Source: Maribacter vaceletii
GTDB taxonomy: Bacteria > Bacteroidota > Bacteroidia > Flavobacteriales > Flavobacteriaceae
Direction: 5' to 3'
NCBI RefSeq assembly: GCF_003634105.1
Contig: NZ_RBIQ01000007.1
Span: 806,001 to 870,000 of the forward strand
Length of the DNA stretch: 64,000 nt
Below are positions 36,806-53,948 of the stretch, in pieces. Made by a program: the position numbers and the translations under genes. The stretch's first letter is position 1. Every line of letters begins with the position of its first letter. The notes below the pieces were generated by a model that was given only the letters and a program-made list of their open reading frames with translations, made no database searches and was not told the DNA's origin.

Positions 36806-37390
36806 CTATCTATAAAAATTCATCTCATCTATATATTTCCAAACCACTTTTGGCAACAAAGGTTTTATGTTTTTACCTAATTTATGGTTTTTGCGAATAA
36901 ATGTGGATGAAATTTCCATTATTGGAGCATCTACCCTATGTATTTTAGGGTGATTTTTAAACTGATGTTCTACAACGCCACTAGAAACTCTAGGATATAC
37001 ATAAATAGAATACTCTTCTAAAATAATATCGAAATTTTTCCATTTATGAAAGCCCTTTAAATTATCTTCTCCCATAATTAATGAAAATTCATAATCTTTT
37101 GGGTACTTTTCCGAAAGGACTGCCAAGGTGTTTATGGTATAATTTGGCTGTGGTAAATCAAATTCAATAGTACTTGGTTTTAAACCATCATACTCTTTTA
37201 CGGCCTCATATACCATTTGGTATCTATGATTGTTATCTAGTAAAGTTTTCTTTGTTTTAAAAGGGCTTTGCGGAGTTACCACAAACCAAACCTCGTCTAA
37301 ATCTGAGAACTCTACCATGTGGTTAGCAATTACTAAATGCCCTAAATGTATAGGATTAAAAGTGCCAAAATAAAGCCCTACTTTTTTCAT
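36806..37390 (-). CDS. nadD: nicotinate-nucleotide adenylyltransferase
   Basis: The 194-aa enzyme adenylates nicotinate mononucleotide in NAD synthesis. It has the nucleotidyltransferase motif GLYFGTFNPIHLGHLVIA (HxGH) at the N-terminus and ISSTFIRKNHKLGKNI near residue 165, the ISSTxIR motif. It is the last gene of the yicC-gmk-nadD operon, 11 bp after gmk. Confidence 0.95.
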   Translation of the reverse strand: MKKVGLYFGTFNPIHLGHLVIANHMVEFSDLDEVWFVVTPQSPFKTKKTLLDNNHRYQMVYEAVKEYDGLKPSTIEFDLPQPNYTINTLAVLSEKYPKDYEFSLIMGEDNLKGFHKWKNFDIILEEYSIYVYPRVSSGVVEHQFKNHPKIHRVDAPIMEISSTFIRKNHKLGKNIKPLLPKVVWKYIDEMNFYR

Positions 37391-37401
37391 TTACTAGCTT
37401 A

Positions 37402-37980
37402 CTATTCTTTTGGATTTACAAAACTTTCTACAAGGTCATGTGCCTCTTTTAAAGCAACATCTAAATCGTAATTTTTAATAATTTTATCAAACTGTGGTGC
37501 AGTGGCAAGTTCTACTCCAGCTTTTGCAATTCGCATATTTATTTTGTCATCACTCTCAGTGCTTCTTTTTTTAAGCCTAATCTTGAGTTCATCTATACTT
37601 GGAGGTTTTACAAAAACTGCTAATGTCTCTTTCGGGAATTTCTTTTTAATACGCAATCCTCCTACAACATCTATATCAAAAATTACATTTTTCCCTTCTG
37701 CCCAAAGGCGTTCTACTTCTGTTTTTAAAGTACCATAAAAATTATCTCTATATACTTCTTCCCACTCTAAAAAATCATCATTCTTAATGTGCTTCTTAAA
37801 CTCAGAAACAGTCATAAAATAATAATGTTCTCCATTTTTTTCTTTTCCTCGTCTAGGTCTAGATGCAGCAGAAACAGAAAATGCCAAATTTAAATCTGGT
37901 TGCTCTAATAAGTGCCTAACTATAGTAGTTTTACCACTACCTGATGGTGCCGAAAAAATTATTAATTTACCGCCTGCCAT
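37402..37980 (-). CDS. gmk: guanylate kinase
   Basis: The 192-aa kinase phosphorylates GMP to GDP. It has a P-loop (FSAPSGSGKTTIVRHLL, residues 9-25), the GMP-binding SRPRRGKEKNGEHYYFM segment near 42 and a lid region with RLKKRSTESDDKINMRI near 137. The start overlaps the yicC stop by one base (TAATG arrangement), so translation is coupled. Confidence 0.96.
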   Translation of the reverse strand: MAGGKLIIFSAPSGSGKTTIVRHLLEQPDLNLAFSVSAASRPRRGKEKNGEHYYFMTVSEFKKHIKNDDFLEWEEVYRDNFYGTLKTEVERLWAEGKNVIFDIDVVGGLRIKKKFPKETLAVFVKPPSIDELKIRLKKRSTESDDKINMRIAKAGVELATAPQFDKIIKNYDLDVALKEAHDLVESFVNPKE

Positions 37981-38837
37981 TATAAAACATTCAACATTTG
38001 TTCTTTAATTTTTTCTAACTCATCTTTCATCTGTACCACTATTTGCTGCATAGGAGCATAATTTGCTTTAGAGCCTATAGTATTAATTTCTCTTCCTATT
38101 TCTTGGCATATAAATCCAAGTTTTTTTCCATTACTGTCTGATGAGCTTAATGTTTTTGTAAAATATTCTAAATGATTCTTTAAACGTACTTTTTCTTCTG
38201 TTATATCATATTTTTCTAGGTAGTAAATAAGTTCTTGTTCAAACCTATTAGCATCTACATCTGCAGTTAAATCTGCAACTGCTTTTTCTAATTTTTCTCT
38301 AATAGTAGCTTGCCTATCTGGATCTATAGTCTTAACTTCTTCTAACAATGAAGTTAACTTACTTACTCTTAATTTAAAATCGGATTCTAAAACACTCCCC
38401 TCTTCGGATCTAAATGTATTAATTTCCTGCAAGGCTTTGACTAATGCTTCTTTTATAGAACTATATTCTGCCTCATCTATATCTTCTTTTTCCGTTTTCA
38501 TAGCATCTGGCATACGCAATGCCATTTCAAGAAGTTGTATAGATTCTCCTTCTGCAATAGACTGTAATTGCTTCATATATTGCTTTACAGTAACTTCATT
38601 TACCTGAGCAGAAGTACTATCTCCTGTGTTTTCTATATATAAACCAAAATCTACCTTACCACGAACTAAAGAGCTTGCAATTACCTTTCGCAATTCTAAT
38701 TCCTTTTCTCTGTATGCCGAAGGCATTCTTGCATTTAAATCTAAGTTTTTGCTATTTAAGGACTTTAATTCTACTGTAATTTTTTTTGAGGGAAGTTGTA
38801 TTACATGTTTCCCAAACCCGGTCATGGATTGAATCAT
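37980..38837 (-). CDS. yicC: YicC/YloC-family endoribonuclease
   Basis: The predicted protein has 285 residues from ATG 38837, where the usual family start MIQSMTGFGKHVI begins; the frame opens 7 codons earlier, but that start would lie upstream of the predicted transcription start. The N-terminal YicC domain (about 1-155) and C-terminal DUF1732 domain (about 200-285, ending MQQIVVQMKDELEKIKEQML) are both present. Family members cleave RNA. The order yicC-gmk-nadD is a common bacterial arrangement. Confidence 0.93.
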   Translation of the reverse strand: MIQSMTGFGKHVIQLPSKKITVELKSLNSKNLDLNARMPSAYREKELELRKVIASSLVRGKVDFGLYIENTGDSTSAQVNEVTVKQYMKQLQSIAEGESIQLLEMALRMPDAMKTEKEDIDEAEYSSIKEALVKALQEINTFRSEEGSVLESDFKLRVSKLTSLLEEVKTIDPDRQATIREKLEKAVADLTADVDANRFEQELIYYLEKYDITEEKVRLKNHLEYFTKTLSSSDSNGKKLGFICQEIGREINTIGSKANYAPMQQIVVQMKDELEKIKEQMLNVL

Positions 38838-38855
38838 ATATAGATTATTTGCCTG

Positions 38856-38863
38856 CAAAGATA
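38856..38863 (-). promoter_or_regulatory. -7 element (TATCTTTG) of the yicC-gmk-nadD operon
   Basis: On the minus strand TATCTTTG matches TAnnTTTG exactly and predicts a start near 38849, about 12 bases before the ATG at 38837. This decides the start of yicC against the longer frame from 38858. Confidence 0.55.
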
Positions 38864-38962: not shown

Positions 38963-39730
38963 CTATAACTCCCTTACCCAGATATTCCTATAACTTACTC
39001 TACTATTATCTCTATGGTCTTGTAATTTTATAGGGCCTTTACCATGTGGAGGATTTTTAGGCCACCCTATATATGGAGTAGTTCCTTTAATTTCTACATG
39101 ATCCTGAATAAGTATACCATTATGTAGTACTGTTAAAGTACCTGATTTTATTTTTACCCCTTTTTCATTAAACTCAGGAGCATGATACACTATATCATAA
39201 ACATTCCACTCTCCACTAGGAACAGATGCCATTGCTAAAGGGGTGTGTTGTTTGTAAACAGACCCAACTTGACCATTAACATAGGTATCATTATCGTTAT
39301 TATCCAAAACTTGCACTTCATACTTACCTTGAATAAAAACACCACTATTTGCTCTATTTTGCCCTTTCCCTTTAATATCTGCTGGGGACTGCCATTCTAT
39401 ATGTAATTGTATATCGCCAAATTTTTGCTTGGTTTGTATATCTCCCGATTTATTTTTAACCGTTACACTCCCATCTTCATTAATAAGCCAAGTAGCTTTT
39501 TCTTTAGTTTTAGTATGCTCCCAACCATCTAAATTTTTCCCGTCAAACAATACAATAGCATCACTAGGAACTCCATTAATATTCTTTTTTACAACAGGAA
39601 CTACTGGCTCATAAAATTCTGTTTCCTCTGGTTTTGTTGGCTCTTTATTTTCTGTAACTATTTCTTTTTGACTATAGCAACTATTAGCTACAAAAGCAAC
39701 AAGTACAAAAGCTAGGCGTAATTTTTTCAT
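38963..39730 (-). CDS. DUF1080 family protein (3-keto-disaccharide hydrolase-like)
   Basis: The 255-aa protein has an N-terminal signal (MKKLRLAFVLVAFVANSCYS; either a lipoprotein Cys or ordinary cleavage after it). The DUF1080 beta-jelly-roll starts at VLFDGKNLDGWEH near residue 62 and has FGDIQLHIEWQSP, NSGVFIQGKYEVQVLDN and GPIKLQDHRDNSRVSYRNIW. The family is known as 3-keto-disaccharide hydrolase because members cleave C3-oxidised glycosides. It is downstream of a TIM-barrel sugar isomerase-like gene (67-bp gap), and two GMC dehydrogenases lie nearby, which fits that pathway. Confidence 0.9.
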   Translation of the reverse strand: MKKLRLAFVLVAFVANSCYSQKEIVTENKEPTKPEETEFYEPVVPVVKKNINGVPSDAIVLFDGKNLDGWEHTKTKEKATWLINEDGSVTVKNKSGDIQTKQKFGDIQLHIEWQSPADIKGKGQNRANSGVFIQGKYEVQVLDNNDNDTYVNGQVGSVYKQHTPLAMASVPSGEWNVYDIVYHAPEFNEKGVKIKSGTLTVLHNGILIQDHVEIKGTTPYIGWPKNPPHGKGPIKLQDHRDNSRVSYRNIWVREL

Positions 39731-39797
39731 TTTATAATTCTTTTATTTTGATATTTCTGTAAAACACCATTTTATTCACTGAATAACAAAGTATGTT

Positions 39798-40850
39798 TTA
39801 AATCCCTAAAATTCCTTTTAAGGCATCTTTATCTGTATCTCTCCCCGCAAAATCATCAAATGTTTTTTGAGTAGCTTCTATTATGTGTTTTTTAATAAAC
39901 GGGGCACCTTCGCGAGCACCTTGTTCAGGACTCTTCATACAACATTCCCATTCCATAACTGCCCAAACGTCGCAGCCGTATTGCGTAAGTTTAGAGAATA
40001 TTCCGCTAAAATCTACTTGACCATCTCCTGGAGATCTAAACCTACCGGCTCTATCTATCCAATCCGAATATCCGCCATAAACACCTTGCTTACCAGTTGG
40101 GTTAAATTCAGCATCTTTTACATGAAAAGCCTTTATAAAAGAATGGTAATGGTCTATATACGTTAAATAATCTAAGTTTTGTAACACAAAATGACTTGGG
40201 TCATATAACATATTTACACGCTTATGATTATTTGTTGCTGCTAAAAAACGCTCAAAAGAAACACCATCATGTAAATCTTCCCCTGGGTGAATTTCATAAC
40301 AAACATCTACCCCTTTTTCATCAAAATGATTAAGAATAGGCATCCATCTATTTGCAAGTTCTTCAAAACCTAGTTCTACTAATCCTGGAGGTCTTTGTGG
40401 CCACGGGTACATAGTATGCCAAAGTAATGCGCCAGAAAAAGTTGCATGGGACTTTAACCCCAAACGGTTACTTGCAGTACCTGCCTTTTTAACAGTTTCT
40501 ATTGCCCATTCTGTTCTTGCTTTTGGGTTATTTTTTACAGCATCTGGTGCAAAACCATCAAACATAGAGTCATAGGCAGGGTTAACTGCCACTAATTGGC
40601 CTTGTAAATGCGTAGAAAGCTCTGTTATTTCTAATCCGTAAGAATTAACCTTTCCTTTTAATTCATCACAATAGGTTTGGCTTTCTGCAGCTTTGTCTAA
40701 ATCTATTAAAAAAGATTCCCATGTAGGTATTTGTATTCCCTTATATCCTAAATCTGCTGCCCATTTACACATACCATCTAAGGTATTAAATGGAGCTTTA
40801 CTATCTACAAATTGTGCTAAAAAAACAGCAGGTCCTTTTATCGTTTTCAT
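39798..40850 (-). CDS. sugar phosphate isomerase/epimerase-like TIM-barrel protein
   Basis: The 350-aa cytoplasmic protein (no signal peptide) belongs to the xylose-isomerase-like AP endonuclease 2 superfamily. Likely metal ligands are in CYEIHPGEDLHDG (Glu), MLYDPSHFVLQNL (Asp, His), AFHVKDAEF (His) and AVMEWECC (Glu). Related proteins act on 3-keto sugars as isomerases or lyases. It is first of a two-gene operon with the DUF1080 protein and divergent from a GMC oxidoreductase gene across a 181-bp gap, where I found no exact -7 element. Confidence 0.88.
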   Translation of the reverse strand: MKTIKGPAVFLAQFVDSKAPFNTLDGMCKWAADLGYKGIQIPTWESFLIDLDKAAESQTYCDELKGKVNSYGLEITELSTHLQGQLVAVNPAYDSMFDGFAPDAVKNNPKARTEWAIETVKKAGTASNRLGLKSHATFSGALLWHTMYPWPQRPPGLVELGFEELANRWMPILNHFDEKGVDVCYEIHPGEDLHDGVSFERFLAATNNHKRVNMLYDPSHFVLQNLDYLTYIDHYHSFIKAFHVKDAEFNPTGKQGVYGGYSDWIDRAGRFRSPGDGQVDFSGIFSKLTQYGCDVWAVMEWECCMKSPEQGAREGAPFIKKHIIEATQKTFDDFAGRDTDKDALKGILGI

Positions 40851-41031
40851 TTTAATGTTTTTAGTATATTTTTCGTAATATTTCGCGTTTTTTTGTGAAT
40901 TATTTTGCTTTTCTGCAAGAAATTTTTATGAATATGCAGTATATTTAGTGTTATTCTGCCATATTATTAATATCTCACCAGATACGTTATAAATATAGGC
41001 ATAACATCATTATTATTTTTAAAAAAGTGCA

Positions 41032-42735
41032 ATGAATAACGAAGAAATTTACGATGCCATAGTAGTAGGAACTGGAATAACTGGAGGTTGGGCAGCTAAA
41101 GAATTATGTGAAAATGGTTTAAAAACTTTAGTGCTTGAACGTGGTCCTATAGTTAAACATATAGAAGATTACAAAACCATGAATGACGACCCTTGGAATT
41201 ACCCCCTTAAAGGCGAACTTTCTAAAGAAGATAAAAAGAAACAACATATTCAAAATAGGGTTGGTTGGGCACCAAAAGAAGACAACAAACATTTTTTTGT
41301 AAATGATTTGGAGCATCCCTATGAAGAAATTAAACGTTTTGACTGGATACGTGGTTATCATGTTGGTGGGCGTTCTTTAACTTGGGGAAAACAAAGTTAT
41401 AGATGGAGTGATATTGATTTTAAAGCAAACAAAAAAGATGGAAATGGGGTAGATTGGCCAGTGCGCTATAAAGATATTTCTCCTTGGTATGATAAGGTGG
41501 AAGAATACATTGGTGTAAGTGGTCAAAATTTAGGGTTAAAACAGCTTCCAGATGGAATATTTCAACCCCCTATGGGTTTAAACTGTGTAGAAGAAGCCCT
41601 AAAAGAGTCCATGGCATCTTCATTTGATGATGGTAGATTATTAACTATTGGTAGGGCAGCTCACCTTACAGATAAAAATGCAAAATTTGAAGGGAGAAAT
41701 CCTTGCCAATATAGAAATAGATGTAGCCGAGGCTGTCCTTTTGGAGGTTATTTTAGTAGTAATTCTTCTACCCTTCCTGCTGCCGAACGAACTGGAAACA
41801 TGACATTAAGGCCAAACTCTATTGTTCATGAAGTAGTTTATGATGCTAAAACAAAAAAAGCAACTGGAGTAAAAATTATTGATGCACTAACGAATGAAAA
41901 AATAGAATATAAAGCTAAAGTTATTTTCTTATGCGCATCTGCAATGGCATCTGTTGGGATATTATTACAATCTAAGTCTGAACGTTTCCCTAATGGCCTT
42001 GGGAATGATTCTAATGTATTAGGAAGAGGTATTATGGACCACCATTACCAGTTAGGAGCTTCTGCAAAAGTAGATGGCTTTTTAGATAAATATTACAAAG
42101 GAAGAAGACCCAATGGATTTTATATTCCAAGATTTGTAAACTTAGATAAAAAAACTAGTCGAAAAGAATATCTAAGAGGCTTTGGATTCCAGGGCGGAGC
42201 AAGTAGAGGTAATTGGTCTGAAGCAATCGCCGAAATGGGTTACGGCGCAGAATTAAAAGAACACATTTTAAAACCTGGACAATGGCAAATTGGCGCCACT
42301 GGTTTTGGAGAAATGTTGCCCCATGATGATAATAGGGTTATGCTAAGTAAAACTAAAAAAGATAAATGGGGATTACCGCAACTTGCTTTTGATGTAGAGT
42401 TTAAAGAAAATGAACTAAACATGAGAAAAGACATTCTTATAACCATAGAAGAAACATTTAAAGCGGCAGGTTTTAAAGATGTTTCTACCTATGACAATTC
42501 CACTGGCCCAGGCCTTGGAATACATGAAATGGGTGGTGCAAGAATGGGGCATTCTGCTAAAACATCTATCGTAAATAAATACAACCAAATACATAGCGTA
42601 CCAAATGTTTATGTAACAGATGGTGCTTTTATGAGTTCTTCTAGTTGTGTAAACCCTTCATTAACTTATATGGCTTTTACAGCAAGAGCTGCAAACCATG
42701 CTGCAAAGGAATTTAAAGCAGGTGCATTTTCTTAA
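41032..42735 (+). CDS. GMC oxidoreductase, probable glycoside 3-dehydrogenase catalytic subunit
   Basis: The 567-aa flavoprotein starts with an FAD-binding Rossmann motif (IVVGTGITGGWAAKELCENG). A motif CQYRNRCSRGCPFGG near residue 224 has three closely spaced Cys like the [3Fe-4S] site of FAD glucose/glucoside dehydrogenases. The C-terminal GMC part holds GIHEMGGARMG near residue 500 with the catalytic His and SSCVNPSLTYMAFTARAANH with the partner Asn. It has no signal peptide; such subunits are usually exported with a Tat-carrying small subunit. It is about 60-65 % identical by eye to the GMC protein at 47423. No small-subunit gene follows directly, so it may share the partner at 49138. Confidence 0.88.
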   Translation: MNNEEIYDAIVVGTGITGGWAAKELCENGLKTLVLERGPIVKHIEDYKTMNDDPWNYPLKGELSKEDKKKQHIQNRVGWAPKEDNKHFFVNDLEHPYEEIKRFDWIRGYHVGGRSLTWGKQSYRWSDIDFKANKKDGNGVDWPVRYKDISPWYDKVEEYIGVSGQNLGLKQLPDGIFQPPMGLNCVEEALKESMASSFDDGRLLTIGRAAHLTDKNAKFEGRNPCQYRNRCSRGCPFGGYFSSNSSTLPAAERTGNMTLRPNSIVHEVVYDAKTKKATGVKIIDALTNEKIEYKAKVIFLCASAMASVGILLQSKSERFPNGLGNDSNVLGRGIMDHHYQLGASAKVDGFLDKYYKGRRPNGFYIPRFVNLDKKTSRKEYLRGFGFQGGASRGNWSEAIAEMGYGAELKEHILKPGQWQIGATGFGEMLPHDDNRVMLSKTKKDKWGLPQLAFDVEFKENELNMRKDILITIEETFKAAGFKDVSTYDNSTGPGLGIHEMGGARMGHSAKTSIVNKYNQIHSVPNVYVTDGAFMSSSSCVNPSLTYMAFTARAANHAAKEFKAGAFS

Positions 42736-42792
42736 AATGACTATATTGCACAACACTAACAATATTAAAAACTATAAACGCGTTCATTAGTA

Positions 42793-43257
42793 ATGGAAAA
42801 TTCATCAGCAAGAAATATGTGGGGAGATTATTTAGATAAGCATTTAGAAGATGCTTTTCATGAGGCTCCAAAAACAATCCATTTTTGTGATAATGAGAAT
42901 GATGCTAATGAATGTGCTAATCTTGTAAAATCTGGCATAAAAAAAGCTACTACAGATTCTCTTATTGGTATTCAAAACAGAAAAGAAAGACTTCCTAAAA
43001 TAGGAGACTTTACTGTTATTACCAATTGGGAAGGAGAAGCTCAATGTATTGTAGAAACTACTAAAGTTATCCTAAAACCTTATTTTAGTATTGACGAAGC
43101 TTATGCAAATAAAGAAGGGGAGGGAGATAAGTCTTTAGCGCATTGGAAAAAAGTACATTGGGATTATTACACTAGAGAATTAGGTGCTTTTAATCGCAAA
43201 CCTAGTGAGAGCATGATTGTAGTTTGCCATGAATTTAATGTTGTTTTTAAAAGGTAG
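42793..43257 (+). CDS. ASCH domain protein
   Basis: The 154-aa protein shows an ASCH fold: VKSGIKKATTDSLIGI near residue 45, then LPKIGDFTVITNWEGEAQCI and a C-terminal strand SESMIVVCHEFNVVF. ASCH (PUA-like) proteins bind RNA or act as N4-acetylcytidine amidohydrolases; the active residues cannot be confirmed here. It lies 57 bp after the GMC gene and is followed by a strong terminator. Link to sugar metabolism is not evident. Confidence 0.82.
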   Translation: MENSSARNMWGDYLDKHLEDAFHEAPKTIHFCDNENDANECANLVKSGIKKATTDSLIGIQNRKERLPKIGDFTVITNWEGEAQCIVETTKVILKPYFSIDEAYANKEGEGDKSLAHWKKVHWDYYTRELGAFNRKPSESMIVVCHEFNVVFKR

Positions 43258-43277
43258 TATTTTAACTTAAAACATAA

Positions 43278-43309
43278 AAAAATGCAGCCCTATATAAGGC
43301 TGCATTTTT
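43278..43309. terminator. bidirectional terminator between ASCH and Gfo/Idh genes
   Basis: AAAAATGCAGCC pairs perfectly with GGCTGCATTTTT around an 8-base loop, between the stops of two convergent genes. Confidence 0.85.
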
Positions 43310-43329
43310 ATAAATTATTAGTACCTAAT

Positions 43330-44472
43330 TTAGGATTCTAATTTAACCCAAATATTACCTGCTTTATGAGATTCAACTGTAGCTTCAATAAAATTCATTC
43401 CACGAACGCCATCTAACATAGTAGGAAACTCTCCGTCATTATACTTTTCTCCTCTAATTGCTTTTGCAGCTCCTAAATAAATATTAGCCATAGAATCAAA
43501 AATACCTTCTGGGTGTCCTGGAGGTAATTTTGTTCCCCCTAAAGATAAATCGGAGTTATACGCATGCCCAGGTTTATACACTTGCATTGGTTCTGTGTCG
43601 CTCAATTTATATAAGAAATTAGGATTCTCTTGCTCCCACTTAAAAGCAGCTTTTTCCCCATATATTGCAATAGACAATCCATTTTCTTCTCCTGTAGCAA
43701 CTTGACTAGAACGTATTAATCCTTTTACATGATTATCCATACGTACTAGAACAGTACCATCAACATCCATCTGGTTGTCTTCATACAAATAATTAAAATC
43801 AGACAAAATAGAATCTATACGTAATCCTGTAGTATATTCAATTAAATTAAAAGCATGCACACCAATATCACCAATACAAGAACTAATACCTGCCTTTTTA
43901 GGATCTAATCTCCAAACAGAAGAACGTTTTTCTTGATCATGGATTATTGTATTTATCCATCCTTGATAATAAGAAGCATCTACTTTATGAATTTTTCCTA
44001 AAGCACCAGATTTGATCATTTCTCGCATTTGGCGTACCATTGGGTATCCTGTATATGTATGCGTTAACGCAAAAACTGCTCCTGATTTTTTATGTGCCTC
44101 TTGTAATATTTTTGCTTCTTCTAGACTTGTTGTCATTGGCTTTTCACAAATAACATGAAAACCATTATCTAACAACTTTTTTGCCATTGGAAAATGCAAA
44201 AAATTAGGAGTAAGTATAGAACAAACTTCTATTCTTTCTTCTTTTGGAAGTTTCATTTCTTCTTCCACAAAAGTGTCAAAATCTTTATATATTCTATTTG
44301 TTGGAACATCTATCTCTTTCGCAAAAGCCATGTTTGCATCAAAATCTGGATTAAATACTGCTCCTGTTATTTGATAATTATCATTTATATGTGATGCAAC
44401 TCTATGTAATACTCCAATAAGAGAATCTCCGCCTCCGCCAAGAATTCCTAACCTAATTTTTTTACTCATCAA
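43330..44472 (-). CDS. Gfo/Idh/MocA-family oxidoreductase
   Basis: The 380-aa protein has an N-terminal NAD(P) Rossmann fold (KIRLGILGGGGDSLIGVLHR) and the family motif VICEKPMTTSLEEAKIL near residue 108 with the conserved Lys. A C-terminal substrate domain includes SSCIGDIGVHAFNLIEYTTG, where the catalytic Asp/His lie. It is the last gene of an operon with a sugar transporter, DinB-like and TIM-barrel genes. In the proposed pathway it would reduce or oxidise a (3-keto) sugar with NAD(P)(H). Confidence 0.92.
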   Translation of the reverse strand: MMSKKIRLGILGGGGDSLIGVLHRVASHINDNYQITGAVFNPDFDANMAFAKEIDVPTNRIYKDFDTFVEEEMKLPKEERIEVCSILTPNFLHFPMAKKLLDNGFHVICEKPMTTSLEEAKILQEAHKKSGAVFALTHTYTGYPMVRQMREMIKSGALGKIHKVDASYYQGWINTIIHDQEKRSSVWRLDPKKAGISSCIGDIGVHAFNLIEYTTGLRIDSILSDFNYLYEDNQMDVDGTVLVRMDNHVKGLIRSSQVATGEENGLSIAIYGEKAAFKWEQENPNFLYKLSDTEPMQVYKPGHAYNSDLSLGGTKLPPGHPEGIFDSMANIYLGAAKAIRGEKYNDGEFPTMLDGVRGMNFIEATVESHKAGNIWVKLES

Positions 44473-44513
44473 CTTAAATATTTAATTTCTTTACTACTTA
44501 TTTTTAATACTAT

Positions 44514-45746
44514 TTATGCAATAGCATCTTCTCCGTGTCCAATTCTATTTTTTTCAATCTTATTACGCATAAAGAATAAAATTCCAAACAATACAACTAG
44601 AGCTAATGGAAAAAACACTACTATTCCTAAAACGGCTTTTCCTGCTGCAATTTCTGCCAAAACTCCTGATAAACCAGATGCTAAAGCATTATTTTTTTCT
44701 TCATCTAACCAAGAACCAATTACTGGATTCCACATAGAGGTAGCAAACATTCCAGCTCCACCAACTAACGACATTCCTAATGCACCTGTTTTTGGCAAGT
44801 ATTCTGATACAAAACCAATCATAGTTGGCCAAAAGTAACAAACTCCTAAAGCAAATAATGCAGCCGCAACATATATCATAGAGCCATCTACTATACTCAT
44901 AAGATAAATAGCTACACTAGTAATTATTGCAGACATCCAAAGAACCCCTGCAGGGTTTAATTTATGTACAATTGGTCCTGCAAAAAACCTGCCTAAAGCC
45001 ATAATACCAGTTACTAAAGCCAATACTAACATAGGGCTAGCACCAGAGCTACCTAAAATAGTTTCTATCCATTGTTGTGGTATAAACTCAGAAACCGCTG
45101 TTAATGTCATGCAAAGTGCCATAAAAATAAATAATGGACTTGCTAAGGCTTTTATATTATTAGATGTGTTAGATTCCATATTCTTACTTTCAGGAAATTT
45201 TTGAGTAAATATTAAATACCCATAAATTAATGTAGGAATTAGCATTGTTGCTATTAAGGTTTGCCACCCCATTCCGGCATCTGTTAAAAATTTAGTTACT
45301 AAAGCCCCTATAACAAGACCCCCAGGAAACCAAACATGAAATTTATTTAACATTGCTGTTCTGTTGTTAGTATACATTTCTGCTATCATTGGATTACATG
45401 CTGCTTCTACAGAACCATTTGCAAAACCAATAAAGAAGGTAGATATGATTAATGTCCAGAAACCACCTGCAAAAATGGTTAATAACAGCCCTAGCATATG
45501 ACATATGAAGGCAACAATCATTAATTTTTTAGCGCCCACAGTATTATAAAGTAACCCTCCAAGAATCATTGCTAGCGGAAACCCTAGAAAAGCCATACTA
45601 TTTATCCAACCTAATTCTTTATTAGAAATTTCAAAATCTACTCCTAATTGATTTAAAATACCTGCTCTTATTGCAAATGTCATAGACGTTACAATTAGAG
45701 AAATACAGGCTGCTAAAAATATTTGGTTTTTATTTACTTCTTTCAT
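44514..45746 (-). CDS. MFS transporter, FucP-like sugar:proton symporter
   Basis: The 410-aa protein has twelve predicted spans. FFIGFANGSVEAACNPMIAE near residue 105 and NKFHVWFPGGLVIGAL near 135 are typical of the FucP/sugar subgroup in Bacteroidota. It lies 41 bp upstream of the Gfo/Idh/MocA gene and 45 bp downstream of the DinB-like gene, so it is likely to import the sugar handled by the operon. Confidence 0.88.
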   Translation of the reverse strand: MKEVNKNQIFLAACISLIVTSMTFAIRAGILNQLGVDFEISNKELGWINSMAFLGFPLAMILGGLLYNTVGAKKLMIVAFICHMLGLLLTIFAGGFWTLIISTFFIGFANGSVEAACNPMIAEMYTNNRTAMLNKFHVWFPGGLVIGALVTKFLTDAGMGWQTLIATMLIPTLIYGYLIFTQKFPESKNMESNTSNNIKALASPLFIFMALCMTLTAVSEFIPQQWIETILGSSGASPMLVLALVTGIMALGRFFAGPIVHKLNPAGVLWMSAIITSVAIYLMSIVDGSMIYVAAALFALGVCYFWPTMIGFVSEYLPKTGALGMSLVGGAGMFATSMWNPVIGSWLDEEKNNALASGLSGVLAEIAAGKAVLGIVVFFPLALVVLFGILFFMRNKIEKNRIGHGEDAIA

Positions 45747-45791
45747 TTCCTTATATATTTAATTAGTTGGTGTTGTTATTAAGTTCTAAAG

Positions 45792-46235
45792 CTATCTTTT
45801 ATAAATAGCATAATCTAGAATTAGGGGGTCTAGTCCCTTTTTTCTAAAGTCTTTTGCTATTTGCCCTCTATGCTGGGTTGAGTGGTTTATGATATGAAAT
45901 AGCATATCTTGTAGTGTATTTGTAAAAAGCCGTCCTTCAGAACTCTCATAATCTATTCTATCCTCAAAATCATCTGCATTACTTGTTATTTCAAAAGAAT
46001 TTCTTTGATTTTCATAATGAATATCCTCCCACTCTTTTATATCATGTAATTGCCATATAGTGTATTTAGAAGGAATATTTATTATCCTAGAATTCCAAAT
46101 ATGATGCGCATTTAAAATATGGCTAAATAATCTAATTGTTTTATCAGGTATAGTTTCCATTGCAATACACTGCTCTATTATTTTTTTGTTGCAATAAAAA
46201 TTATAATCAAACATCTGATTAAAAAAACCCTTCAT
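45792..46235 (-). CDS. DinB-like four-helix-bundle protein
   Basis: The 147-aa protein has the DinB/YfiT-like layout with three potential metal ligands: His near residue 44 (LNAHHIWNSR) and two His in the C-terminal helix (IINHSTQHRGQIAKDFRKKG near 116-120). Family members often bind divalent metals and transfer or bind small thiols. It starts 12 bp after the TIM-barrel lipoprotein gene, so it is in that operon, but its connection to sugar metabolism is unclear. Confidence 0.85.
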   Translation of the reverse strand: MKGFFNQMFDYNFYCNKKIIEQCIAMETIPDKTIRLFSHILNAHHIWNSRIINIPSKYTIWQLHDIKEWEDIHYENQRNSFEITSNADDFEDRIDYESSEGRLFTNTLQDMLFHIINHSTQHRGQIAKDFRKKGLDPLILDYAIYKR

Positions 46236-46247
46236 AATATGTATTAA

Positions 46248-47252
46248 TTATTTAACTTTTTTAGAAGCACTTACTAACAATTTTTTTGTTGCTAATATAC
46301 CTTCTTCTTCCCCTAGTATTTTACCTTCGTATTCTACTCCTATAAAACCAGTATACCCTGCATCTTTTACAATTTGAAGCATTTTTACGTAGTTTATTTC
46401 AGTTTCGTTTCCATTAACATCAAAATCATGCGTTTTAGCACTAACGGCTTTTGCCCTTGGCATTAATTCTTTTACCCCTTGGTATTTGTCATATTCATTT
46501 GCACAGCCCTTAGATCTATCTTTTTTATCATTTCTCTTGATGCAAAAATTACCAAAATCTGGCAATGTTCCACAATTGTCCATATTTACAAGCTCCATAA
46601 CTTCCGCTACTAAAGCTCCATTAGAGGAAAGACCTCCGTGGTTTTCTACTATTATATTTATATTCTTTGTTTGTGCATAAGTAGCTAATTGTGTTAAACC
46701 ATCAACAGCATTTTTTTTCCATTCTTCAGGAATGTCGCTACCCGCTAAATTAACTCGTATAGAATGGCAACCCATTGCAGCTGCAGCATCTACCCATTTA
46801 TAATGTTTTTCTATTGCATTTTTTCTTTCTTTAGCATTGGTTACCGCTAATTTTCCTTGACCATCTATCATAATAATCAAATTTTGCATCCCATGCTTTT
46901 TTGCTTCCGCATTACATTTTTCTACAAAAGAAGCCATTGCTTCTTTGGAGTAATTTGCTTTAGATAATTCTGGGTTGTATAATTGACTTACATATTCTAA
47001 ACCACTAAAACCCAACTTTTTTGCTTTTTCAGCAAATGTATAAGGATCTACACCTTTTTCTTTTATCATGGTATGTATAGACCATTGCGCTAATGATAAT
47101 TTAAAAAAAGGATCCGCACTAACTACTACCTCTTCTTTAGTAGTTTCTTTTTCTGAAGTTTCCTTTTTTACTTCTTTACAGGAATATGCAGTAGCAAATA
47201 AAATGACTACCAATAATCTAATTTTTGTATTTACAATACTATTCTTTCTCAT
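46248..47252 (-). CDS. periplasmic TIM-barrel sugar isomerase/epimerase-like lipoprotein
   Basis: The 334-aa protein has a lipoprotein signal ending TAYSCKEV (Cys near residue 25), then a xylose-isomerase-like barrel. Ligand candidates are NINIIVENHGG (Glu), TLPDFGNFC (Asp), AVSAKTHDFD (His) and FIGVEYEG (Glu). Export of such a barrel is characteristic of Bacteroidota sugar loci, where related lipoproteins act on 3-keto-glycosides as lyases. It is the first gene of the operon leading through DinB-like and MFS to Gfo/Idh/MocA, and diverges from the second GMC gene. Confidence 0.88.
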   Translation of the reverse strand: MRKNSIVNTKIRLLVVILFATAYSCKEVKKETSEKETTKEEVVVSADPFFKLSLAQWSIHTMIKEKGVDPYTFAEKAKKLGFSGLEYVSQLYNPELSKANYSKEAMASFVEKCNAEAKKHGMQNLIIMIDGQGKLAVTNAKERKNAIEKHYKWVDAAAAMGCHSIRVNLAGSDIPEEWKKNAVDGLTQLATYAQTKNINIIVENHGGLSSNGALVAEVMELVNMDNCGTLPDFGNFCIKRNDKKDRSKGCANEYDKYQGVKELMPRAKAVSAKTHDFDVNGNETEINYVKMLQIVKDAGYTGFIGVEYEGKILGEEEGILATKKLLVSASKKVK

Positions 47253-47284
47253 ATCTTTTTTGGTTCTATTTTTTCGTTATATGT

Positions 47285-47292
47285 CAAAAATA
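47285..47292 (-). promoter_or_regulatory. -7 element (TATTTTTG) of the TIM-barrel lipoprotein operon
   Basis: On the minus strand TATTTTTG matches TAnnTTTG exactly, giving a leader of about 26 bases before the ATG at 47252. Confidence 0.5.
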
Positions 47293-47422
47293 GTGGTATT
47301 TATCGTATTGCACAATTGTAAAATACTACAACGTTATAGTAAATCTTTCCTAATTATTAAGGGAAATAAATGTAGAAAATTAATTTTATATTTAATAAAT
47401 TTAGGGATTAAACAATTAATAC

Positions 47423-49138
47423 ATGAGCAAATTTTATTATAACGAAGAACAAGATTTTTACGATGCAATTGTTGTTGGGACTGGAATAAGTGGTGGATGG
47501 GCTGCTAAAGAACTGTGTGAAAACGGTCTAAAAACCTTAGTTTTAGAACGAGGTAAAATGGTTACCCATATAAAAGACTATGAAACTGCTCATAAAGACC
47601 CTTGGGACTTTCCAAATGGTGGACAACCTACACAAGAAGAACTTGCCAAACAACCAAAGCAAAGTAGAACCGGTTACACTACTAAATCTGCTAGTTCTAT
47701 GTGGTTTGTTAATGATTTAGAGCACCCATATAACGAAACAAAACGTTTTGATTGGATGCGTGGTTACCACGTTGGTGGGCGTTCTTTACAATGGGGTAGA
47801 CAAAGTTATCGTTTAAGTGATATTGATTTTACTGCAAATAAAAGAGAAGGCATTGCCGTTGACTGGCCTATACGTTATAAAGATATAGCTCCTTGGTATG
47901 ATAAAGTAGAAGAATACATAGGAGTTAGTGGAGAAAATTTAGGCTTAGAACAATTACCTGATGGTAAATTTCTTCCAAAAATGGATCTTAATTGTGTTGA
48001 AGAACACCTAAAAGAAAAAGTTGCCGAAAATTTTGATGGAAGGGTGGTAACTGCTGGTAGAGTTGCTCATATAACTGGGAATAAAGAATTTGATGGCAGA
48101 ACTAAATGTCAATTTAGAAATAGATGTATAAGAGGGTGTCCTTTTGGAGCATACTTTAGTAGTTTATCTTCTACTTTACCAGCAGCAGAACGTACAGGTA
48201 ACATGACATTAAGACCAGACTCTATTGTTCATGAAGTTATATATGACCCAAAAACAAAACGAGCTACTGGCGTTAGAGTAATTGATAGATTAACTAAAGA
48301 AAAGTTTGAATTTAAGGCCAAAGTAATATTCTTATGTGCCTCAGCAATTGCATCTACCTCTATACTAATGCAATCTAAGTCCGAAACTTTTCCTAATGGA
48401 ATGGGAAATACATCTGACCAGTTAGGGCGTAATATTATGGACCATCATTTAAAAGTTGGCGCCAGAGCAAAAGTGGATGGTTTTACAGATAAATATTATA
48501 AAGGAAGAAGACCAAATGGAATATATATTCCTAGATTTAAAAATTTAGGAAGAGATAGTAATACTAAATCTTACAAAAGAGGATTTGGTTACCAAGGAAG
48601 TGCTTCTAGAGGTAATTGGGAAGATTCTATTGCCGAACTGTCTCATGGTAAAAATTTAAAAGATGCCATTTTAAAACCAGGAGGATGGACTATTGGTATT
48701 GGAGGGTTTGGAGAGGTTCTTCCTTATGAAGATAATAGGTTTACTTTAGATTACGATAAAAAAGACCAATGGGGCTTACCAACTGTTACTTTTGATGCAG
48801 AATTAAAAGAGAATGAGCGTAATATGCGTAAAGACATGCAAGAATCTGCTATAGAAATGTTAACTAAAGCCGGGTTTAAAGATGTAGAAGGTTATGATGA
48901 TACTTCTGCTGCACTTGGACTAGGTATTCATGAAATGGGGACTGCTCGTATGGGAAGAAATCGTAAAACATCTGTTCTAAACGGAAATAACCAATTACAT
49001 GATGTCTCAAATGTTTATGTAACTGATGGCTCTTTTATGACATCGTCTAGTTGTGTAAACCCATCATTAACTTATATGGCATTTACAGCCAGAGCTGCTA
49101 ATCATGCTGCTGAACAATTTAAAAAAGGAAAACTATAA
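47423..49138 (+). CDS. GMC oxidoreductase, probable glycoside 3-dehydrogenase catalytic subunit (second copy)
   Basis: The 571-aa flavoprotein is a paralogue of the one at 41032: Rossmann motif IVVGTGISGGWAAKELCENG, three-Cys motif CQFRNRCIRGCPFGAYF near residue 229, and C-terminal GIHEMGTARMG and SSCVNPSLTYMAFTARAANH. The stop overlaps the next start by one base, so it is translationally coupled to the subunit-3-like protein, the expected exported partner. Oxidation of a glycoside at C3 with electrons passed through the Fe-S site to a cytochrome is the likely reaction; I saw no cytochrome c gene in the locus. Confidence 0.9.
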   Translation: MSKFYYNEEQDFYDAIVVGTGISGGWAAKELCENGLKTLVLERGKMVTHIKDYETAHKDPWDFPNGGQPTQEELAKQPKQSRTGYTTKSASSMWFVNDLEHPYNETKRFDWMRGYHVGGRSLQWGRQSYRLSDIDFTANKREGIAVDWPIRYKDIAPWYDKVEEYIGVSGENLGLEQLPDGKFLPKMDLNCVEEHLKEKVAENFDGRVVTAGRVAHITGNKEFDGRTKCQFRNRCIRGCPFGAYFSSLSSTLPAAERTGNMTLRPDSIVHEVIYDPKTKRATGVRVIDRLTKEKFEFKAKVIFLCASAIASTSILMQSKSETFPNGMGNTSDQLGRNIMDHHLKVGARAKVDGFTDKYYKGRRPNGIYIPRFKNLGRDSNTKSYKRGFGYQGSASRGNWEDSIAELSHGKNLKDAILKPGGWTIGIGGFGEVLPYEDNRFTLDYDKKDQWGLPTVTFDAELKENERNMRKDMQESAIEMLTKAGFKDVEGYDDTSAALGLGIHEMGTARMGRNRKTSVLNGNNQLHDVSNVYVTDGSFMTSSSCVNPSLTYMAFTARAANHAAEQFKKGKL

Positions 49139-49788
49139 TGGATAGAAGAAAAGCACTAAAAAATATGGGGTTGTCTCTTGGTTACGTAGTAGCCACTCCT
49201 ACCCTACTAAGCATTGTTCAAAGTTGTAAAACAGAAAAAACACTTGAATGGGTTCCAGATTTCTTTACTAAAGAGCAAGGGGAAACTTTAATCTCCTTAG
49301 TAGATTTAATTCTACCAGCCACAGATACTCCTTCTGCTTCGGAATTACAAGTGCATTTATTTATAGATAAATTTTCTAAAGAAGTAATGCCTAAAGAACA
49401 GCAAGATGTTTTTAAAACTACATTTAATGCATTTACTAACACAGCTTTAAAAGATTCTGGAAAAGAGTCCCCTAAAGAGCTAACTTCAGCTAATTTAGAT
49501 ATGTCTTTATCTAAAGCATTAAAAATAAGTAAAGGGCAACAAAAAGAAAATGATAAAGCTATTATGGTATATAACAATGCTATTGCTGCTCAAAATAGTT
49601 CGGTAGTTCTTGCTGATGATGTTGCATGTTATGCTTTTGCTAGCAAGTTAAGAGGACTGACTATTTGGGGGTATAAAACCTCTGAATATGTTGGAGAAAA
49701 GGTTTTAGCATACCTACCTATACCTGGAGAATATATAGCTTGTGGTGATGTGGAAGAACTAACACAAAACAAAGCCTGGTCTTTATAA
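49138..49788 (+). CDS. gluconate 2-dehydrogenase subunit 3 family protein (dehydrogenase small subunit)
   Basis: The 216-aa protein starts MDRRKALKNMGLSLGYVVAT with a twin Arg followed by a hydrophobic stretch and VQSC, so a Tat signal, possibly with lipid attachment at the Cys near residue 30. The rest has the subunit-3 pattern LISLVDLILPATDTPSASEL and GLTIWGYKTSEYVGEKVLAY near the C-terminus. Such subunits carry the flavin subunit through the Tat system and stabilise it. One-base overlap with the GMC gene confirms the pairing. A strong terminator follows. Confidence 0.92.
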   Translation: MDRRKALKNMGLSLGYVVATPTLLSIVQSCKTEKTLEWVPDFFTKEQGETLISLVDLILPATDTPSASELQVHLFIDKFSKEVMPKEQQDVFKTTFNAFTNTALKDSGKESPKELTSANLDMSLSKALKISKGQQKENDKAIMVYNNAIAAQNSSVVLADDVACYAFASKLRGLTIWGYKTSEYVGEKVLAYLPIPGEYIACGDVEELTQNKAWSL

Positions 49789-50339: not shown

Positions 50340-52832
50340 TTAAGAACCACACATTAAACAATCATCATCCGCTTGTCCTTCTTTAGCTCTTGCAATCATT
50401 TCCTTCATTTCTTCTGGGGTTAATGGCTGCACATCTAGTTCTGGTTGTACAACCGTAGTTGCTGCTTTTACCTCCATAGACACTGCTTCTGCCGCTGTTG
50501 GCGCAGGCGTAGCAGCTGTTACCTCTGCTTCTGCTGCTATACTTACAGGCACTTCTTTTTTCTTTGTATTGTCTAACGTAAACTTAATTGCATCTACAGC
50601 TGCTTTAGTACGTAAATAATACATTCCTGTTTTTAAACCACTCTTCCATGCATAAAAGTGCATAGATGTTAATTTAGAATAATTAGCATTCTCCATGAAT
50701 AAGTTTAAAGACTGACTTTGATCAATAAAGTAACCTCTATGGCGACTCATATCAATAATATCCTTCATACTTAATTCCCAAACTGTTTTATATAAATCTC
50801 TAATATCTTGAGGAATAGTCTCTATATGTTGTATAGATCCGTTTGCACGCATTAGTTCTTGCTTCATGTTTTCATTCCACATCCCCAAATCAACTAAATC
50901 CTCTAATAAATGCTTATTTACAACAATAAATTCTCCTGAAAGTACCCTTCTTGTATAAATATTAGAAGTATACGGCTCAAAACACTCATTATTACCTAAT
51001 ATTTGAGAAGTAGATGCTGTTGGCATAGGAGCAACTAATAAAGAATTACGAACACCATTCTTTAATACATCTTTTCTTAATTTTTCCCAATTCCATCTTC
51101 CAGAAAGTTCCTCATCTTTAATTCCCCAAAGATTGTATTGGAATTCTCCCTGTGACATTGGAGAGCCCTCATAAGAAGAATATGCCCCTTCTTCTTTTGC
51201 CATTTCCATTGAAGCTGTTACCGCTGCAAAATAAAGCGTTTCAAAAATCTCTTGGTTTAATTTTTTTGCATCATCACTTGTAAAAGGCATGCGTAACATA
51301 ATAAATGCATCTGCAAGACCTTGCACGCCTAAACCAATAGGTCTATGGCGCATATTAGAATTTTCTGCCTCTTTTACTGGGTAATAATTTCTATCTATTA
51401 CTTTATTTAAATTCTTTGTAACCCTTTTTGTTACTTTAAATAATTCTTTATGATCAAACGCTCCGTTTTTAACAAACATTGGTAACGCAATAGAAGCTAA
51501 ATTACATACAGCTACCTCGTCTGGAGAAGTATACTCCATTATTTCTGTACATAAATTAGAAGAACGAATTGTACCTAAATTCTTTTGGTTACTCTTACGG
51601 TTAGCTGCATCTTTATACAACATATAAGGGGTTCCTGTTTCTATCTGAGATTCTAATATTTTCTCCCAAAGTTCACGAGCCTTAACTGTTTTTCTTCCTT
51701 TTCCTTCTGCTTCATACTTTAGGTACAAGGTTTCAAACTCTTCACTATGTTTTGTAAATAAACCAGGACATTCGTTAGGACACATTAAAGTCCAATCCTC
51801 ATTTCCTTCTACTCTTTTCATGAATAAATCAGAAATCCACATAGCATAAAACAAATCACGAGCACGCATTTCTTCTTTACCGTGGTTCTTTTTTAAATCT
51901 AAGAATTCAAAAATATCGGCGTGCCATGGTTCCATATAAATAGCAAAACTACCTTTACGTTTTCCTCCTCCTTGATCTACATATCTTGCTGTATCATTAA
52001 AAACTTGTAACATTGGAACTATACCATTAGACGTACCATTGGTACCTGCAATATAGGACCCTGTAGCTCTTACATTATGTATAGATAACCCTATACCACC
52101 AGCAGACTGAGATATTTTAGCTGTTTGCTTTAAAGTATCGTAAATACCATCTATACTATCATCTTTCATTGCTAAAAGAAAACAAGAAGACATTTGTGGT
52201 TTTGGAGTACCAGAATTAAAAAGAGTTGGTGTAGCGTGAGTAAAATATTTTTTAGACATTAACTCATACGTCTCTATAGCAGCATCTAAATCATTTAAAT
52301 GTATTCCTATAGAAACACGCATAAGCATATGTTGCGGTCTTTCTGCAATTTGACCATTTATTTTTAACAGATAAGAACGCTCTAGTGTTTTAAAACCAAA
52401 ATAGTCGTAGCCAAAATCTCGGTTATATATAATTGTAGAGTCTAATTTTTCAGCGTTTTCAGATATAACATTAAAAACCTCATCAGAAAGCAACGGAGCT
52501 TCTTTACCAGTTCTAGGGTTTACATACAAATACAAATCTTTCATTGTTTCGGAGAAAGATTTTTTTGTGTTTTTATGCAAGTTAGAAACAGAAATACGAG
52601 CTGCTAATTTTGCGTAATCTGGATGCGTTGTGGTCATTGTTGCTGCAATCTCAGCTGCAAGATTGTCTAACTCCGAAGTTGTAACACCATCATACAAACC
52701 TTCAATTACTCTCATTGCCACTTTAAGTGGATCTACTAAAGCATTTAGTCCATAACAAAGTTTACGAACTCTTGCTGTAATTTTGTCGAACATTATTAGT
52801 TCTTTTCTTCCGTCTCTTTTTACTACATACAT
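50340..52832 (-). CDS. nrdA: class Ia ribonucleoside-diphosphate reductase, alpha subunit
   Basis: The 830-aa catalytic subunit reduces ribonucleoside diphosphates. It has an N-terminal ATP-cone (about 1-95, starting [20 protein letters not shown]), [20 protein letters not shown] near 205 with the substrate-site Cys, [20 protein letters not shown] near 428 with the radical Cys region, and a C-terminal pair CLMC for re-reduction. A linker of about 50 residues rich in Ala/Glu/Val precedes that tail. It follows nrdB at 129 bp on the same strand. Confidence 0.96.
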
Positions 52833-52867
52833 ATTGCTACAAGGGTTTTAATGGTGTGTTAATATTA

Positions 52868-52956
52868 GGGTCGGTTAATAATCAACCGTCCTAACTAGTT
52901 TTACTGCAGGTTTTTATAATTAATTGGGGTATAAAACAACAAACTAATGTTGTTTT
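52868..52956 (-). promoter_or_regulatory. two hairpins in the nrdB-nrdA intercistronic gap
   Basis: In mRNA orientation the first hairpin (52933-52956) has 9-bp perfect arms AAAACAACA/TGTTGTTTT just past the nrdB stop with a weak T-tail; the second (52868-52892) pairs GGaCGGTT with AACCGaCC around 7 bases, about 36 bp before the nrdA ATG. They could attenuate, stabilise or process the transcript and set the subunit ratio. Confidence 0.5.
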
Positions 52957-52961
52957 AGGCA

Positions 52962-53948
52962 TCAGAAATCAGCGTCGAAACTTATTTTCTGAGAATCTTC
53001 ATCATCCTCTGTATTTAACACGCCGGCTTTTTGATATTCTGAAACGCGTTTTTCAAAGAAATTAGTTTTTCCTTGTAAGGAAATCATATCCATAAAATCG
53101 AACGGATTGGTAGAATTATACACTTTATCGCATCCTAATTCTACTAATAAACGATCCGTAACAAATTCAAGATACTGGGTCATTAATTTAGCATTCATTC
53201 CTATTAAGCTAACAGGAAGTGATTCTGTTATAAACTCTCTTTCTATATTAAGAGCATCTACTAAAATTTCTTTTATTCTTTCTTTTGGAACTTTATTTAC
53301 AATATGATGGTTGTGTAAATGCACAGCAAAATCACAATGCATACCTTCATCTCTTGAAATTAACTCATTAGAGAAGGTTAAACCAGGCATAAGACCTCTC
53401 TTTTTTAACCAATATATAGAGCAAAAAGAACCTGAGAAGAAAATACCTTCTACTGCTGCAAACGCTATTAAACGTTCTGCAAAACTTGGAGACTCTATCC
53501 ATTTAAGAGCCCAATCTGCTTTTTTCTTAATTGCAGGAAAATTTTCTATTGCCTGGAAAAGTTTTGTTTTTTCCTTATCATCCTTAACATACGTATCTAT
53601 TAATAGAGAATAGGTTTCTGAATGTATGTTTTCCATCATTATTTGAAAACCATAGAAAAATTTTGCTTCTGAATATTGTACTTCATTCACAAAATTTTCT
53701 GCTAAATTTTCATTTACTATACCGTCTGATGCAGCAAAAAATGCAAGAATATGTTTTATAAAATATCGTTCATCGTCACTTAACTTATTATTCCAGTCGG
53801 TTAAGTCTTCATGCAAATCTATTTCTTCTGCCGTCCATATACATGCCTCTTGCTTTTTATACCAATCCCATAAATCATTATGTTGAATTGGAAATATTAC
53901 AAACCGATCTTTGTTTTCGGCTAAAATGGGCTCAATGGATATAGACAT
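52962..53948 (-). CDS. nrdB: class Ia ribonucleoside-diphosphate reductase, beta subunit
   Basis: The 328-aa diiron protein supplies the tyrosyl radical. Ligand motifs are all present: [14 protein letters not shown] (first Asp), [18 protein letters not shown] (Glu, His, and the radical Tyr at the expected +7 spacing from the Glu), [17 protein letters not shown] (Glu) and [17 protein letters not shown] (Glu and His). The C-terminal tail is acidic ([15 protein letters not shown]) and should bind NrdA. It is the first gene of the nrdB-nrdA operon. Confidence 0.96.

Follow-up and report, generated by a model that had tools for sequence, protein, structure and literature searches.

What does Maribacter vaceletii do with a gene cluster that combines two GMC dehydrogenases, two TIM-barrel proteins, a DUF1080 protein, a Gfo/Idh/MocA oxidoreductase and a transporter? 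The cluster fills positions 38963-49788 of the window, by which we mean the whole stretch of 64,000 nucleotides analysed here (G000:C1:806001-870000), and the source genome comprises 3.89 Mb in 15 contigs. An earlier, sequence-only reading of this DNA had proposed a chain of C3 oxidation of a glycoside, cleavage, import and reduction. The chain is still the best reading, given a hydratase orthologue, precedents in Agrobacterium and Caulobacter, and synteny, although the C3 specificity assigned to the GMC enzymes is a prediction. From homology and analogy we consider it probable that the locus encodes a two-compartment route in which glycosides undergo oxidation, elimination, hydration and reduction; this succession of steps, the one seen in Agrobacterium, is favoured because the cytoplasmic TIM barrel, HYD, is a full-length relative of the solved protein 8ro4.

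From the observed gene content, homology, active-site conservation, synteny and co-occurrence we infer every reaction of this route, its C3 specificity, the compartments and the transport step. In the periplasm, an FAD-dependent GMC dehydrogenase with its twin-arginine subunit 3 would oxidise the sugar at C3, and an Fe-S cluster would relay the electrons to an acceptor whose gene lies outside the locus. With the C2 proton thereby acidified, the lipoprotein TIM barrel would be able to expel the aglycone or second sugar, and the DUF1080 protein would perhaps cleave other linkages. The product, 2-hydroxy-3-keto-glucal (or 3-keto-glucose), would be imported by the major facilitator superfamily (MFS) protein, after which the cytoplasmic hydratase would add water to give 3-keto-glucose and the Gfo/Idh/MocA enzyme would reduce this to glucose.

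HYD (39798-40850, minus strand), an AP_endonuc_2 protein by Pfam, appears to be the best single piece of evidence for a locus that acts on 3-keto sugars. Its match to 8ro4, the solved '2-hydroxy-3-keto-glucal hydratase', spans residues 1-350 of 350 (E 2.3e-165, 553 bits), the second-best solved match was far weaker (E 4.5e-41), and no signal sequence was seen at its N-terminus. Judged from its name, 8ro4 may be the Agrobacterium AtHYD itself. The sequence-only reading had described one cytoplasmic and one lipoprotein TIM barrel, both isomerase-like; the two locations stand, but HYD is probably a cytoplasmic hydratase-type protein rather than an isomerase, and the lipoprotein looks eliminase-like by profile and fold. 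The closest relative of HYD, 90% identical, comes from an uncultured Maribacter (L009). The predicted cytoplasmic 3-keto-glucose reductase (43330-44472, minus strand; PF01408/PF22725) matched the solved structure 3v5n with E 3.9e-88, and a GFO gene of the same direction as HYD, ending upstream of it and at most 3.5 kb away, is present in 57 of 80 hydratase loci, these being the best 80 of 593 relatives, which lean to close ones and include some cut by contig ends. Weak NCBIfam matches of HYD to iolE and of the Gfo protein to iolG bring up another possibility, an inositol or polyol catabolic cluster of IolE-like, IolG-like and GMC alcohol dehydrogenase proteins. We rejected an inositol identity for the two proteins: their scores lie far under the cut-offs (65 against 290 bits for iolE and 40.8 against 355 for iolG), whereas 8ro4 matches HYD strongly. 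Moreover, neither DUF1080 nor a periplasmic GMC enzyme has a known role in the inositol pathway, and an inositol cluster is highly improbable.

Which protein would carry out the cleavage? The second AP_endonuc_2 TIM barrel (46248-47252, minus strand) is a predicted periplasmic 3-keto-glycoside beta-eliminase, judged from its Pfam match, lipoprotein-type N-terminus, structural model and alignment. An alignment of 25 members was used to build its AlphaFold2 model, which had a mean pLDDT of 89.1. When the model was compared with solved structures by Foldseek, rank 1 was 4ovx, an uncharacterised protein from Planctomyces, and ranks 2-11 were chains of DgpB/C and of the Microbacterium C-glucosyl deglycosidase, ten chains that represent about three proteins, the Microbacterium enzyme and two of DgpC type. 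A profile search at E 0.01 retrieved 13 solved sequences, namely 4ovx, eight deglycosidases (among them 7xrf and 7bvr, probably one protein), Art22, IolI and two D-tagatose 3-epimerases; the hydratase 8ro4 was absent from these matches. Among characterised proteins, then, the lipoprotein appears closest to the 3-keto-C-glycoside deglycosidases by profile and modelled fold. In AgCGD2 the deglycosidase site consists, according to the available part of PMC8563793, of Glu147, Asp179, His269, Lys271 and Glu305 round Mn, with His149 as the base. Mapped through the DgpC alignment, these correspond to E203, H205, D232, S271, K273 and E307, each invariant in 25 of 25 members, so five of the six active-site residues are kept and the H269 position is occupied by S271 throughout. 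The serine at this metal-ligand position is shared by 4ovx, and where an OGE-type site would read H-x-H, D, H, E, the lipoprotein reads E-N-H, D, S-A-K, E. Its nearest characterised relatives cleave 3-keto-C-glycosides, and the locus might on that account serve C-glycosides rather than O-glycosides, in which case the lipoprotein would be a C-glycoside deglycosidase. The invariant serine argues otherwise, and a search for the CGDB beta subunit (PF19906) found no match in the genome whereas it found three in Croceicoccus plasmid W01; we regard a C-glycoside route as very improbable.

The genes also keep company beyond this genome. Searches of the 80 loci with the window proteins by tblastn found GFO in 68, DUF1080 in 35, GMC2 in 34, MFS in 30, subunit 3 in 29, the lipoprotein in 26 and GMC1 in 15. 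Hidden Markov models (HMMs) built from hits within those same loci gave GFO in 69, DUF1080 in 52, GMC in 39, subunit 3 in 37, MFS in 30 and the lipoprotein in 27; the hydratase itself was counted in 79 of 80, that of L063 being lost in the calling of open reading frames (ORFs). Hydratase, GFO, DUF1080, GMC, subunit 3 and lipoprotein occurred all together in 23 of 80 loci. In a sample of 149 Flavobacteriaceae genomes, one per genus, 71 had the hydratase (full-length rows), 72 the lipoprotein and 68 both, and the two genes lay within 15 kb of each other in 64 of these 68 (median 3.5 kb), the remaining four having them on different contigs. The hydratase count keeps 72 rows from 71 genomes and drops seven weak or partial rows including G072 (E 6e-7); the lipoprotein count takes one row, the best, for each of 72 genomes, adds a second row for G030 and for G049, and drops 21 weaker rows. 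Three genomes had the hydratase and no lipoprotein (G110, G112, G127) and four the reverse (G025, G047, G136, G146). Subunit 3 was found in 79 genomes and lay within 15 kb of the hydratase in at least 58 of 69 cases, and DUF1080 was found in 98, of which 27 were without hydratase. Genome-wide, M. vaceletii has only four GMC (PF05199) matches, two of them in the locus, and three subunit-3 (PF13618) matches, one of them in the locus. Because GMC and subunit 3 are so scarce in the genome and the set recurs in relatives, the gene set is beyond chance.

The set varies from locus to locus. Beyond the Bacteroidota, a Pseudoalteromonas plasmid carries Gfo, HYD, MFS, DUF1080, GMC, subunit 3 and a TIM barrel as one co-directional run, the TIM barrel having an H-x-H motif like His132/His134 of AtOGE. 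In a Croceicoccus plasmid, HYD lies with GMC, subunit 3, Gfo, a glycoside hydrolase family 3 (GH3) gene and a TIM barrel whose neighbour is a PF19906 protein; by family name, these two neighbours are a C-glycoside deglycosidase subunit pair. An Agrobacterium plasmid (L122) has HYD and Gfo with no GMC nearby, so the linkage of HYD with GMC is not universal. In Zobellia russellii, whose locus is conserved in other respects, a GH2 beta-galactosidase-type gene lies among the genes (L016 4206-7418), which possibly hints at galactoside substrates. The absence of a classical glycoside hydrolase, noted in the sequence-only reading, is thus true of the M. vaceletii copy and does not extend to the Zobellia locus or the Croceicoccus operon. 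An AraC-type regulator gene lies upstream of the lipoprotein gene in two relatives (L018 5222-6355, by Pfam; L019 5431-6492, by sequence likeness); the window locus has no AraC-type regulator.

How would the sugar be oxidised, and where would the electrons go? Both GMC1 (41032-42735, plus strand) and GMC2 (47423-49138, plus strand) are FAD-type GMC_oxred proteins (PF05199/PF00732) that can be aligned over almost their whole length with fructose dehydrogenase and FAD glucose dehydrogenase; GMC1 matched the large subunit of fructose dehydrogenase with E 2e-41. The C-x5-C-x3-C motif pointed out earlier occurs once in each and in 48 of 49 GMC ORFs of more than 500 residues in related loci. The three cysteines of GMC1 line up with three of fructose dehydrogenase, which we take to be 3Fe-4S ligands. 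GMC1 and GMC2 share 69% identity, and a third copy, found on contig C3, shares 73% with GMC2. The final base of GMC2 is also the first of subunit 3 (49138-49788, plus strand; Gluconate_2-dh3, PF13618, 88.4 bits against a cut-off of 23.4), whose proposed Tat-type character is borne out by a twin-arginine start, MDRRKALKNMG; 33 of 39 homologous ORFs have an RR pair among their first 15 residues. No signal sequence was seen in either GMC protein. Enzymes of this family are exported with a Tat-type subunit 3, and by analogy the GMC protein is likely to leave the cytoplasm as a complex with this partner. The GMC2 type adjoins subunit 3 in related loci, whereas GMC1 has no neighbouring subunit 3 of its own; with four GMC and three subunit-3 matches in the genome, GMC1 must share a partner or act alone.

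As to the acceptor, that of Rhizobium radiobacter glucoside 3-dehydrogenase is a monohaem cytochrome (PMC9915066, available part). In the window, the C-x-x-C-H DNA pattern has four matches, none inside the locus. A small C-x-x-C-H ORF of 119-149 residues directly follows the hydratase in 14 of 80 loci, as expected of a dye-linked dehydrogenase, and two more such ORFs, in L017 and L020, are sited elsewhere. The one post-hydratase ORF scanned, that of a Chitinophaga locus (L055), is a cytochrome c. That locus (L055 11188-16718) also holds a ThuA-GSDH-PKD-cytochrome c protein. Elsewhere in the M. vaceletii genome there are 12 PF13442 cytochrome c matches, eight of them over the cut-off, so an electron acceptor is possible.

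Several findings weigh against the route as drawn. The nearest solved relatives of the GMC enzymes are the fructose and glucose dehydrogenases, which are not known to act at C3. Pfam found no cytochrome domain in the ten locus proteins, and the only match of the Chitinophaga cytochrome in the genome was a 1134-residue open frame (G000:C4:19500, L125). The co-occurrence counts ignore shared ancestry and lack a control of unrelated gene pairs. The fold matches of the lipoprotein at ranks 2-11 are modest (TM-score 0.60-0.65 by query length, 17-21% identity), and epimerases appear from rank 12 with E-values only slightly weaker. The lipoprotein also has Ser271 for the metal-ligand His, and in AtOGE the substitution of a metal His (H189A) disrupts activity, according to the available text. 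For the DUF1080 step, the available part of PMC9007349 reports no lactose phenotype for ten Pedobacter DUF1080 genes, and that of PMC11501099 no defect on raffinose-family sugars after deletion of BT2157 or BT2158 in Bacteroides thetaiotaomicron. Finally, a DUF1080 match is present in all 71 of 71 hydratase genomes.

This last count also speaks to the division of labour in cleavage. The DUF1080 protein of the locus (38963-39730, minus strand; PF06439, 144.3 bits against a cut-off of 26.8) is a probable periplasmic lipoprotein with an N-terminus ending in VANSC, and its nearest solved structure is 4qhz (E 1.8e-75). PF06439 has 11 matches over the cut-off in this genome, so presence alone says little. 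Of the 80 loci, 45 had no tblastn match to DUF1080, 18 of which were positive by HMM, with L056 the opposite case; of the 26 lipoprotein loci, nine were negative by tblastn, and by HMM L044 was the only negative one. Since DUF1080 accompanies the hydratase in all 71 of these genomes, the lipoprotein is never the only cleavage candidate. We rejected the idea that it is the sole cleaving enzyme, as hydratase genomes without DUF1080 number 0 of 71 and phyletic data cannot separate the two proteins. Could the pathway be right with DUF1080 alone cleaving, and the lipoprotein be a 3-keto-sugar epimerase or a periplasmic hydratase? The ubiquity of DUF1080 fits this, as do the citation of BT2157 as a 3-ketotrehalose hydrolase and the proposal of CCNA_01705 as a 3'-ketolactose hydrolase in PMC9007349 (available part). 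The lipoprotein model also matches epimerases (UlaE, D-tagatose 3-epimerase and, at rank 42, the 3-keto-glucoside 4-epimerase YcjR), and the hydratase too carries the E-x-H and H-x-K motifs, so these residues mark a class of chemistry and not elimination alone. In the profile search, however, 8 of the 12 solved matches besides 4ovx are C-glycoside deglycosidases and 8ro4 is missing, and deglycosidase chains take Foldseek ranks 2-11; we regard cleavage by DUF1080 alone as a serious but somewhat unlikely alternative to a lipoprotein beta-eliminase.

The cleaved 3-keto sugar or glycal would enter the cytoplasm through the MFS_1 protein (44514-45746, minus strand; PF07690, 105 bits). It had been called FucP-like, but Pfam and NCBIfam gave no family match beyond MFS_1. 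In a Maribacter (L012) and a Zunongwangia (L035) locus this slot is occupied by a PF03825 nucleoside-symporter-type protein, and in Algoriphagus (L078) such a protein is present in the opposite orientation. An unlabelled ORF of 395-415 residues, mostly unscanned, lies just upstream of GFO in 17 of 80 loci. Exchange of the importer within a conserved frame suggests that both types carry the same product. We tentatively propose that members of the 4ovx family act outside the cytoplasm as single-subunit beta-eliminases of 3-keto-O-glycosides, that their metal site is altered (His to Ser, with Lys retained), that the family is linked to the hydratase in roughly half of the Flavobacteriaceae genera sampled, that DUF1080 and the eliminase divide the linkages between them, and that two distinct MFS-superfamily families import the 3-keto-glycal; taken jointly, these statements come close to an even call, tilted towards doubt. 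The 4ovx family itself is not named in the literature searched, although its function may all the same have been published. If the proposal is true, 71 of 149 sampled Flavobacteriaceae genera carry a glycosidic-bond cleavage by oxidation and elimination that is missed by counts of glycoside hydrolases, and the uncharacterised 4ovx family and the two transporter types gain a named test reaction.

Ten ORFs fill the locus, all intact and above their Pfam cut-offs, and every gene named in the sequence-only reading is among them; the two small ones that it omitted encode an ASCH-domain protein (42793-43257, plus strand; PF04266) and a DinB-family protein (45792-46235, minus strand; PF05163). Each of these occurs in 9 of 80 hydratase loci, and they are probable passengers. 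The reading's statement that a SusC/SusD pair is lacking held for the ten proteins, and of the other window ORFs with at least 150 residues (36 in all), the 20 examined gave none either; one TonB receptor lies at 7692-9980, about 29 kb from the locus. The left flank (36806-38858) presumably holds nadD, gmk and yicC, and the right flank (50340-53948) ribonucleotide reductase genes, the small chain being identified by Pfam.

The same genome holds sister modules. On contig C4 (L118), GMC and subunit 3 accompany an H-x-H TIM barrel (8988-9821) with a signal-like start; on contig C3 (L117), GMC3 and subunit 3 accompany a TIM barrel that begins with a twin-arginine motif. All three subunit-3 sites of the genome thus have an exported TIM barrel adjacent, of a different type at each. 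Two sulfatases and a weak melibiase-like protein lie in the same 11 kb of L117, which suggests a link of this module to sulfated sugars. In L118 (4788-6846), a UxuA-type mannonate dehydratase ORF, matched from profile position 120 onwards, shares its sequence in part with the end of a tyrosine recombinase gene; it has the look of a gene that lost its 5' part at an integration site. Contig C3 also encodes a double-DUF1080 protein followed by two Gfo/Idh/MocA enzymes (L119 5100-9009), a set that resembles the Gfo-based 3-keto system BT2157-2159 of Bacteroides. The genome thus seems to hold GMC-based and Gfo-based versions.

How does the locus compare with known systems? Gut bacteria are said to use stepwise oxidation-elimination-hydration glycosidase systems with DUF1080 and Gfo modules, reportedly described by Nasseri et al. 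in 2024, in which NAD-type Gfo enzymes are said to take the first step; the chemical logic would be the same as in the window, which differs by its GMC first step. A close parallel is the Agrobacterium operon of GlycDH, AtOGE, the putative hydratase AtHYD and Gfo, for which the available part of PMC10628242 describes C3 oxidation by the GMC enzyme, a specificity that is predicted for the window enzymes, and cleavage of 3-keto-phlorizin by AtOGE to 2-hydroxy-3-keto-glucal; evidence for hydration by AtHYD and reduction to glucose by Gfo is there called preliminary. The window shares with it a GMC enzyme with a Tat partner, two TIM barrels, a Gfo reductase and a full-length homologue of 8ro4. Unlike this operon, as far as the available text describes it, the window has a CGE-like E-x-H lipoprotein where AtOGE has an H-x-H metal site, and adds DUF1080 and an MFS transporter. 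The lacABC/DUF1080 lactose cluster of Caulobacter (PMC9007349, available part) likewise has GMC, subunit 3, DUF1080 and a transporter, together with two sugar epimerase-type proteins and a reductase, a likeness that rests on the gene set of GMC, subunit 3 and DUF1080 and not on comparison with the LacA sequence; the window locus lacks an equivalent of LacB, the cytochrome c subunit of that cluster. The C-glycoside deglycosidases DgpB/C, DfgA/B and AgCGD2, as the available part of PMC8563793 presents them, share the fold of the lipoprotein and the equivalents of E147, H149, D179, K271 and E305, and differ in that the lipoprotein has Ser for His269, no beta subunit found in the genome, and the features of an exported lipoprotein. 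The available text of PMC9007349 names Bacteroidota examples of lacABC/DUF1080-type clusters. The kind of pathway is thus already published, Bacteroidota included, and the function proposed for the lipoprotein is a concrete, testable addition to it.

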